A stretch of DNA of 64,000 nt, taken from NCBI RefSeq assembly GCF_001697225.1, contig NZ_CP014671.1, forward strand, positions 2,356,001-2,420,000. Direction: 5' to 3'. This DNA comes from Immundisolibacter cernigliae. GTDB taxonomy: Bacteria; Pseudomonadota; Gammaproteobacteria; Immundisolibacterales; Immundisolibacteraceae. A model generated the notes under the pieces. It worked only from the letters and a program-made list of their open reading frames with translations. It was not told the DNA's origin and searched no databases. A program made the position numbers and the translations under genes. Shown in pieces: positions 25,785 through 55,007 of the stretch. Every line of letters starts with the position of its first letter. Within the stretch, counting starts at the first letter, position 1.

Positions 25785-25793
25785 CGGCTGCAA

Positions 25794-25947
25794 GGGAAGC
25801 GCCGAATAAATCCATCCTGGATTTCTCAGCGCCCGCCATCGGAAAAGCGTGGTTTTCCGATGGCTCACAAAATCAGCGGCTCATAGCCACTGATTTTGGC
25901 AGCGCGTCCCTGCGCTGCGGGAAGCGCTGAATAAATCAGCGCTTCCC
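25794..25947. repeat. Five-hairpin intergenic repeat, copy A
   Basis: This 154-bp element lies between two convergent genes and recurs at 41838. In order it contains AAATCCA/TGGATTT; a perfect 12-bp stem GCCATCGGAAAA/TTTTCCGATGGC (25835-25864); AAAATCAG/CTGATTTT with an inner GGCT/AGCC; GCAGCGC/GCGCTGC; and a perfect 12-bp stem GGGAAGCGCTGA/TCAGCGCTTCCC (25919-25947). Its ends are inverted (GGGAAGCGC...GCGCTTCCC), as in a miniature mobile element or a REP-type array. The right end touches the stop codon of the XylM-like gene. Confidence 0.85.
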
Positions 25948-41825: not shown

Positions 41826-41837
41826 GCGATTCTTAAA

Positions 41838-41989
41838 GGAAGCGCTGAATAAATCCATCGTGGATTTTTCAGCGCCCGCCATCGGAAAAGCGTGGTTTTC
41901 CGATGGCTCACAAAATCAGCAGCTTGCACCCGCCGATTTTGGCAGCGCGTCCCTGCGCTGCGGGAAGCGCTGAATAGATCAGCGCTTCC
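41838..41989. repeat. Five-hairpin intergenic repeat, copy B
   Basis: This 152-bp element has the same order of hairpins as the one at 25794. The second, fourth and fifth stems are intact; the third keeps its outer AAAATC/GATTTT but has two A-C mismatches inside. Here it lies between two genes on the same strand, so the element is not simply a terminator for convergent genes. Confidence 0.85.
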
Positions 41990-42015
41990 TTAACGATACC
42001 GACGAGGAGGGCGTC

Positions 42016-52031: not shown

Positions 52032-52967
52032 ATGCTGCACCGTTCCGGCCGCGCTGGCGGCGCATTGCTTGTCTTGCTGGCACTGGCCGGCGCGGTGTCG
52101 GCAGCGACCAGCCCCAGGGACTTCGACCAGCGCCTGACGGCGCTGGAGCAGGCGGCCGGCGCCGCCGGTGCGGGGGCTGGCCAGAGCCAGGCGCAGGTGG
52201 TGATGCAATTGCAGCAGATGCAGGCCGAACTGCGCCAGCTGCGCGGCATGGTGGAGGAATCCGCCAATCAAGTGCAGCAGTTGCAAAAGCGCCAGCGCGA
52301 GTTCTATCTGGACCTCGACGGTCGGCTGAGCACGCTGGAAGGAGGTGGTTCGCCGTCCGGTGGGACTGCCGCGCCGCCAGCCGAGCCGGGGACTGACGCC
52401 GCAGCGCCAAGCCCGCCACCCGGCGGGTCGGCAGGCGTCGATGCGCCCGCAGCGCCGGGACCCGCGTCGACGGCGGATGCCGGGCCGGTCGAGAGGCCGG
52501 TTGCGCCGGTCGTTGCTCCGCCTCCCCCGCCGGCGCCCGCCGGCCAGGTGGCATCGGTTGCGCCGGCTGCGGCGGATGCCGGCGGTGAACAGGCTGCCTA
52601 TCGGGCGGCTTCCGAGCTGCTGCGCATCGGACGCTACGAGGACGCCATCGCCGGCTTCCAGGCGCAGCTTCAGCAATATCCGGGCGGCAGTCTTGCCGAC
52701 AACGCACAGTACTGGATCGGTGAGGCGTACTACGTCACGCGCCAGTTCGACCGTGCGCTGGCCGAATTCCAGCGCGTTGTGGCGCAGTATCCACAGTCGC
52801 CCAAGGCGGCCGATGCCCTGCTCAAGGTGGGTTATATCCAGTACGAGCGTCGGCAGTTCGCGGCCGCCCGCCAGACGCTGACGGATCTCAAGACCACCTG
52901 GCCCAACAGCCCGGCGGCTCGTCTGGCGGACAACCGCCTGAGCCGGATGAAGGAAGAGGGCGTCTGA
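52032..52967 (+). CDS. cpoB: Cell division coordinator CpoB (YbgF)
   Basis: The protein has 311 residues from ATG 52032. It has a signal peptide, an N-terminal coiled coil (QLQQMQAELRQLRGMVEE), a long Ala/Pro-rich linker and C-terminal TPR repeats (YWIGEAYYVTRQFDRALAEF). CpoB couples Tol-Pal to peptidoglycan synthesis. The linker of about 100 residues is long for the family. A hairpin array begins at its stop codon. Confidence 0.9.
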   Translation: MLHRSGRAGGALLVLLALAGAVSAATSPRDFDQRLTALEQAAGAAGAGAGQSQAQVVMQLQQMQAELRQLRGMVEESANQVQQLQKRQREFYLDLDGRLSTLEGGGSPSGGTAAPPAEPGTDAAAPSPPPGGSAGVDAPAAPGPASTADAGPVERPVAPVVAPPPPPAPAGQVASVAPAAADAGGEQAAYRAASELLRIGRYEDAIAGFQAQLQQYPGGSLADNAQYWIGEAYYVTRQFDRALAEFQRVVAQYPQSPKAADALLKVGYIQYERRQFAAARQTLTDLKTTWPNSPAARLADNRLSRMKEEGV

Positions 52968-53106
52968 GAGCTTGTGACATTCAAGCTCTCAGTCCGGCCA
53001 GGGCTGGCCGGTCGCCCATCGAGCACGCAAGTGCTTGATGGGCGGGAGCGAATCCGGGCGTGTACCGGACTCGCGACAGAAGAAATGCGCAGGACGTGCA
53101 TTTCTT
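52966..53106 (+). other. Array of five consecutive hairpins between cpoB and queE
   Basis: GAGAGCTTG/CAAGCTCTC (52966-52990); CCGGCCAG/CTGGCCGG (52994-53011); CGCCCATC-g-AGCAC with GTGCT-t-GATGGGCG closing on a GCAA tetraloop (53013-53044); GCGA-TCCGG/CCGGA-TCGC (53048-53074); AAGAAATGC/GCATTTCTT (53080-53106). The first overlaps the cpoB stop codon. The stems differ from those of the repeats at 25794 and 41838. It may be a REP-type element, an mRNA stabiliser or a regulator of queE. Confidence 0.75.
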
Positions 53107-53140
53107 TACAAATTCTGAGCCGCCCGCCGGCTGGTTTGCA

Positions 53141-53821
53141 ATGACCGTACATGCCCAGGCTGCGCCGGCGAAGGTGCCGGCGGTTCGCCTCAAGATCACC
53201 GAAATCTTCCATTCGATACAGGGTGAAGGCCTGACGGCCGGCGTGCCGACGGTGTTCGTGCGTCTGACCGGCTGCCCGCTGCGTTGCAGTTACTGCGATA
53301 CCGCCTATGCCTTCACGGGCGGCGAGTATGTGGAACTGCCGGCGATCCTGAGCCGAGTGGCGGCCTTCGCGACCTCGCATGTGACGGTCACCGGTGGCGA
53401 GCCATTGGCTCAGGCCGGCTGCCTGGAGCTTCTGAGCGCCCTGTGCGACGCGGGTCATCAGGTGTCGCTCGAAACCAGCGGCGCGCTCGACGTGGCGCCG
53501 GTCGACCGGCGCGTGGTGCGCGTGCTCGACCTGAAAACGCCATCATCCGGCGAATGCGCCCGCAACCTGTATGCAAATCTGGACCTGCTGCAGTCGGGTG
53601 ATCAGGTGAAATTCGTGCTGACCGATCGGGCCGACTACGACTGGGCGGTCGAAACCGCCAGGCGGTATGACATTGCCAGCCGGGCCTGCGTCCTGTTTTC
53701 TCCCGCCTTCGGCTTGCTCGACGCCGCGACGCTGGCCGACTGGATGCTGGCCGACCGGCTGCCCTTTCGCCTGCAGTTGCAACTGCACAAACTGCTGTGG
53801 GGCGAGGTGCCGGGCCGATGA
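53141..53821 (+). CDS. queE: 7-carboxy-7-deazaguanine synthase QueE
   Basis: The product has 226 residues. Radical-SAM cysteines C45-x3-C49-x2-C52 (CPLRCSYC), [15 protein letters not shown] and the DLKTPSSGE loop match QueE, which makes CDG in queuosine/preQ0 synthesis. The start at 53141 follows the hairpin array; an in-frame upstream ATG at 53060 would run through the hairpins. The end overlaps queC (ATGA). Confidence 0.93.
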
Positions 53822-54544: not shown

Positions 54545-54620
54545 GGGCCGTTAGCTCAGTCGGTAGAGCAGCGGACTTTTAATCCGCGTGTCCTGGGTTC
54601 GATTCCCAGACGGCCCACCA
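54545..54620 (+). tRNA. tRNA-Lys (anticodon TTT)
   Basis: Acceptor GGGCCGT pairs with ACGGCCC. The D arm is TAGCTCAGTCGGTAGAGCA, the anticodon stem GCGGA/TCCGC encloses CTTTTAA, the T arm is CTGGGTTCGATTCCCAG, and CCA is encoded. The following DNA looks accessory, so the gene may have served as an integration site. Confidence 0.98.
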
Positions 54621-55007
54621 TTTCGCATTCCGCCGGCGCCCGCCAAGCGCCGCGAACCCCGTATGAAGCCAAGCGTCAAGACACATCGTTGGCTTTGCCG
54701 GCGCCCGCTTGCGTCCATGACATCCAGTAATCTGACGGTAACTTCAGCGGTGATCAGCGCACCGCCGCGACGCGGCGCGCCTTGGCTTTTCCGCGGCGAC
54801 GCTGCGGCATTGGGAACGCGGCGACTGCACGCCCAAAGGGCCGACGCTGGCATTGCTCAATGTCATACACAGTGGGAACCGAAGGCCGCGCTGCGGGCGC
54901 TGGCTGCCTGATCGTTTGCCGCGCCCAGGCCGACGGGGCGAAAAGCCGGACACCTTCGCTGGCTTGGTACGGTGCCTTTATGAAGGACGCGTGACGGAGT
55001 ACCGCAC
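54621..55007. other. Gene-poor stretch downstream of tRNA-Lys
   Basis: No convincing gene is seen. Short open frames on both strands lack family signatures. No integrase and no second copy of the tRNA 3' end is visible here. Confidence 0.5.

Follow-up and report, generated by a model that had tools for sequence, protein, structure and literature searches.

In the 64,000-nucleotide stretch of Immundisolibacter cernigliae DNA that we analysed (the window), cpoB (NCBIfam TIGR02795) and queE (TIGR04349), both called above cut-off, are co-directional and enclose a row of five hairpins, H1 to H5, the last of which ends 34 bases upstream of the queE ATG at position 53141. All five stand back to back at the interval 52966-53106, where the initial annotation had described successive stems of 8 to 14 pairs, although H2 has 7 pairs and the full element is slightly larger than that interval (Table 1). 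The GCAA (GNRA) tetraloop named there is present and closes H3, and the stem said to overlap the cpoB stop codon is H1, which also contains the left terminal repeat, GAGCTTGTGA. The 211-nt stretch with the array folds at -115.5 kcal/mol, against a shuffle mean of -77.05 (sd 4.67, z -8.23), and none of 200 dinucleotide shuffles reached its folding energy; this, together with further copies in the genome, bears out the earlier view of a structured intergenic element. A tRNA gene and then an int-alpA RNA lie in the same window and possibly mark an integrated island beside queE and its neighbouring genes.

Table 1. Features of the window, with positions counted from its first nucleotide.
Feature	Position	Strand	Basis
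Family A element, five-hairpin, MITE-like, cpoB/queE intergenic	52964..53119	+	R1 170 bits (the copy is among the training rows)
Left TGA: cpoB stop codon and insertion target	52965..52967	+	G001 empty site
Right TGA: distal-end direct repeat of the target	53116..53118	+	Sequence and empty-site comparison
H1, left-end hairpin, 11 pairs, includes the cpoB TGA	52964..52992	+	Fold
H2, 7 pairs; family GGA-loop hairpin AGGGAT, mutated to AGGGCT in the window copy	52994..53011	+	Fold and copy comparison
H3, 14 pairs, GNRA (GCAA) loop; stem covaries among copies	53013..53044	+	Fold and covariation
H4, 9 pairs with one mismatch	53048..53074	+	Fold and covariation
H5, 11-12 pairs, AAGAAATGC/GCATTTCTT; second GGA-loop hairpin, C-AGGAC-G	53080..53106	+	Fold and loop counts
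Family B copy, same five-hairpin layout	25789..25947	-	R1 58.9 bits, E 1.1e-14, full length
Family B copy, same five-hairpin layout	41832..41990	-	R1 55.4 bits, E 9.5e-14, full length
tRNA gene	54545..54617		
int-alpA RNA	54918..54986		Rfam RF02996

The orthologous cpoB-queE gap is empty in the congener G001, where GGGCGTCTGA is followed by GCCGCCCGCCGGC and GTCTGA directly abuts GCCGCCC; in the window, the element follows the cpoB TGA, and after it come a second TGA and then GCCGCCCGCC. The gap of a second congener, G002, is likewise empty. These comparisons bear on the earlier suggestion that the last stem, put at 35 bases before queE, could control this gene. The distance is essentially right, and a place between two co-directional genes, with H5 so near the ATG, would suit a regulatory array for queE acting by attenuation or translational control. 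The control itself is unsupported, however, as neither of the two congeners examined has the array in its orthologous gap, and other family A copies stand after unrelated genes. We therefore see no conserved role for queE, the empty gaps ruling out a conserved regulator and making a queE-directed array of any kind highly improbable; an influence of the window copy on queE is possible, then as an accident of its insertion.

Fourteen pairs of occupied and empty sites were compared in all, comprising five copies of the I. cernigliae genome (G000) whose sites are empty in G001 and nine G002 copies whose sites are empty in G000 or G001. In every pair the upstream genes share the same stop; the downstream flank can be aligned in the case of the G000 copies, whereas for the G002 copies it has mostly diverged, and one of the G001 sites holds a different, shortened element. 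TGA is present at both ends of the element and once in the empty sites. Since this repeat is constant among copies, a target-site duplication is inseparable from an end motif, and since, in copies with a variable base before TGA, this base is not the same on the two sides, the repeat comprises three bases.

The preference for stop codons was counted on 77 independent 5' ends from three genomes, 75 of them testable, with 14 tandem-downstream ends and repeated flanks excluded and G002 represented by a sample of 60 regions rather than by every copy. With a stop defined as a TGA closing a frame that is open for 80 codons and has the top GC3, 62 of the 75 insertions lie exactly on a stop codon, as against 55 of 706 CTGA sites elsewhere in the loci; the other 13 testable ends lie off any recognised stop. 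A stricter second gene caller placed 58 of the 77 ends at stops, compared with 31 of 91 CTGA sites that were stop or noncoding (Fisher p 1e-7). Selection against insertion within genes accounts for part of this bias, but not for the excess over free sites. The orientation is fixed, with the TGA (once a TAA) on the H1 side at all 77 ends, which is not predicted from symmetric terminal repeats.

A genome search for other copies, which included a covariance model (R1), returned them both in I. cernigliae and beyond it. By DNA search, G000 contains five further family A copies (74-90% identity) and a solo H1; R1 gives 30 matches at E 0.001 in this genome, corresponding to 26 loci and 4 antisense echoes. 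One of the five further family A copies, at G000:C1:2588804-2588933 (L006), lacks H3 and part of H2. In G001 there is a single full copy, along with a solo H1 whose context resembles that of the G000 solo H1. The left-end pattern, searched with at most one mismatch and able to match a full copy at both ends, occurs 72 and 79 times on the two strands of G002, 4 and 5 times in G000, and 1 and 3 times in G001, and the reversed pattern gave 0 matches. Family A thus underwent a burst in G002, where several copies stand head to tail at a spacing of 152-153 nt. The terminal inverted repeats of the family are GAGCTTGTGAA on the left and, as the reverse complement, GAGTTTGTGAA on the right, and family A thereby has these marks of a MITE: several dispersed, short, non-coding copies bounded by such repeats.

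The two other arrays of the window, which had been set apart from the one at cpoB-queE as a different kind of element (the 25794/41838 family), belong with it after all. R1 was built from 10 rows of families A, C, and D, with no family B row, and matches both of these family B copies over their full length. They contain the same five helices as family A, and H2 and H5 have GGA in their loops, except that the 41838 copy has lost the one in H5; because two of the family D rows share the family B left end, H1 is not independent evidence here. R1 also finds family B copies at other loci.

Family B ends in GGAAGCGCTGATTTATTC, which matches a resident IS5-family element of G000 (NF033581) that occupies 12 near-identical PF01609 places, ends in GGAAACGCTGATTTATTC, and is flanked on both sides by CTAG, CTAA, TTAG, TTAA, or ATAA. 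Copies of this element lie at G000:C1, L075, L078, L080, L082, L084, and L086-L092, some of them in tandem and with variable YTAR-type repeats, and their near identity, with these variable repeats, suggests recent activity. About 10 of the 22 full family B copies have, as judged by eye, an identical four bases on both sides, mostly of the YTAR type, with near matches in others. On the strength of its IS5-type ends and YTAR repeats, we take family B to be an IS5-type MITE. Family A, in contrast, has ends that differ from the IS5 type and a TGA repeat instead of a 4-bp YTAR duplication, and in these respects does not fit an IS5-family derivative.

Some copies combine ends of different family types, and two G000 loci (L304 and L305), found by the covariance model only, surround this core with additional end types (type E), for example GGGCACCTCGAAAA. 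At G026:C1:13817-14533 (L204), tandem family B units of ~124 nt each all lack H1, which is what recombination between the 3' arms of H1 and H5 would produce. In three family C copies of G047 (L069, L070, and L071), a longer GC-rich stretch interrupts H4 or takes its place.

The core shared by these families covaries. In alignment A4, 25 of the 53 pairs are changed on both sides, a number reached by none of 500 shuffles, and the true structure pairs 90% of cells, whereas slid structures pair 28-42%. Across eight genomes outside the model, 45 of the 53 pairs show a both-sided change and the share of paired cells is 95%, the alignment having been fitted to the model. RNAalifold, applied to a MAFFT alignment of 21 genomes in which the remaining stems are shifted, recovered two stems only, H2 and H4, with 19 pairs, 13 of them changed on both sides. 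R1 matches 36 of the 369 genomes of the class (28 of 272 genera) and 35 of 398 phylum genomes, 31 of the latter outside the class; as 7-8 candidates were scored per genome, copy numbers are at least those counted and E-values are rough. The five-hairpin core therefore recurs in many distantly related bacteria and is common to element types with different terminal repeats (A to E). While the array at this locus is unconserved in close relatives, which, along with a lack of other copies, had been named beforehand as speaking against it, many other copies exist and their stems covary.

We conclude that the array is very probably a non-autonomous, MITE-like mobile element of ~150 nt that inserted in the cpoB TGA and has a conserved five-hairpin interior. 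The comparisons show that insertion into the cpoB TGA kept the stop on the left and left a second TGA on the right, and that the family sits likewise at many other genes, always with H1 gene-ward. In the course of events that we propose, (i) a transposase would have moved the element in trans, although the PF01609 loci of three genomes yielded no autonomous element having the ends of family A; and (ii) the element, lying in the 3' UTR, would be read into the transcript of the upstream gene, forming a rigid array that does this gene little harm and may shield the end of its mRNA.

No Rfam 15 family fits the element in the window at gathering score, and none was found up to E 1 in 24 loci with copies (L001, L003, L010, L012, and 20 others), a CsrB/RsmZ-type RNA included; in open-licence papers, we found no description of such an element class. 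Like the IS5-family MITEs, the elements are short, non-coding, and dispersed, and have terminal inverted repeats, family B even sharing the ends and YTAR duplications of the resident IS5-family element. They differ from these MITEs in a five-hairpin core that is conserved across end types and across two classes, and family A differs further in its other ends, its constant 3-base TGA repeat, and its single orientation. QMITE2 of Coxiella burnetii, compared by its description only, is likewise a structured gammaproteobacterial MITE, of ~190 bp, some copies of which are described as overlapping gene 3' ends and which is given as the source of a small RNA; the 7-9 bp direct repeats described for it, however, vary between copies (PMC5896051). 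REP/BIME sequences with RAYT are also repeated extragenic palindromes that stand after genes and are sometimes in tandem, whereas the present element is built as a fixed unit of five hairpins and has inverted terminal repeats. Further, Y1 transposase (PF01797) gave 0 matches in the burst genome G002, against 4 each in G000 and G001, and for its lack in G002 we rejected a REP/RAYT identity. What is new in this MITE-like element is thus its core, its loops, and its choice of target; its spread as such is MITE-like.

The loops of the core were examined in 35 genomes, represented by one match each (L265-L291 and L327-L334) and including no training rows. GGA is present in the loop of H2 in 31 of the 35 and of H5 in 33, compared with 0 for H1, 2 for H3, and 6 for H4, where mostly stem letters at the loop edge were counted. 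The set was found by R1, whose loops belong to the model, and its genomes are related; nevertheless, the H4 loop of the model survives in 1 of the 35, indicating that loops could differ and the match still be found. When 21 of these genomes were aligned with plain MAFFT, the columns C, G, G, A, and G of the H5 loop were invariant. A row of hairpins with GGA in their loops recalls the CsrB/CsrC and RsmY/RsmZ small RNAs, from which the element differs in being mobile and multi-copy and in having GGA in two of five hairpins.

The two GGA hairpins might bind CsrA. We tentatively consider, while holding it to be rather doubtful, that the core is a mobile CsrA/RsmA-binding RNA, in which the H2 and H5 loops (C-ANGGAN-G) would hold a CsrA dimer within a 3' UTR and act as a dispersed decoy or as a tag on host mRNAs; such a function would add to the mobile-element explanation and not replace it. 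The concentration of GGA in these two loops and the invariant H5 columns are consistent with this, as is the match of the loop form to the ANGGAN hexaloop found in RsmE targets and to the SELEX consensus, RUACARGGAUGU (PMC7652899), and csrA was found in G000, G001, and G002. On the other hand, the stems exceed the four or fewer pairs described for most SELEX ligands (PMC7652899), and the window copy has lost GGA from H2 while keeping it in H5. Nor does csrA discriminate significantly between carriers and non-carriers (35 of 37 versus 31 of 36, p 0.26), and none was detected in two carriers, G130 and G202. Strand bias, considered as a proof of an RNA role, was not found for family B, and in co-directional gene pairs the copies of families B to E have no clear preference for one strand (5 versus 3, with a simple gene caller).

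This lack of preference would suit internal hairpins that serve the movement or copying of the element itself, for example through recognition of folded single-stranded DNA, with the loops as contacts for transposition enzymes and no role as RNA, given that DNA hairpins are equal on both strands. The conservation of the structure along with the element in many genomes agrees with such a use, and the single orientation in which family A sits at TGA is reminiscent of asymmetric target recognition. Against it, the burst genome G002 has no Y1 (RAYT/IS200) transposase, copies without H3 exist (L006), though nothing shows the mobility of such copies, and the loop form suits an RNA-binding protein; we regard a use confined to movement as unlikely.

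In summary, our analyses identified a MITE-like element whose interior is its lasting part. MITEs are usually viewed as gutted IS elements with an interior under no selection. Here, covarying pairs and two kept loops persist across two bacterial classes while the ends differ, and a conserved interior of this kind calls for a function at the RNA level or for some unrecognised requirement of the element. The use of stop codons as landing sites, in one orientation, is in turn a choice of target that known IS5-type ends leave unexplained. More speculatively, and with slightly less confidence than we give to CsrA binding by the core, the families may together form a phylum-wide class of transposable CsrA-binding 3' UTRs, in which a single conserved five-hairpin RNA core, equipped with two docking loops for CsrA/RsmA, is joined to IS ends of several kinds and inserts at gene ends. 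If true, such a mobile 3' UTR would titrate or rewire the Csr network wherever it is inserted.
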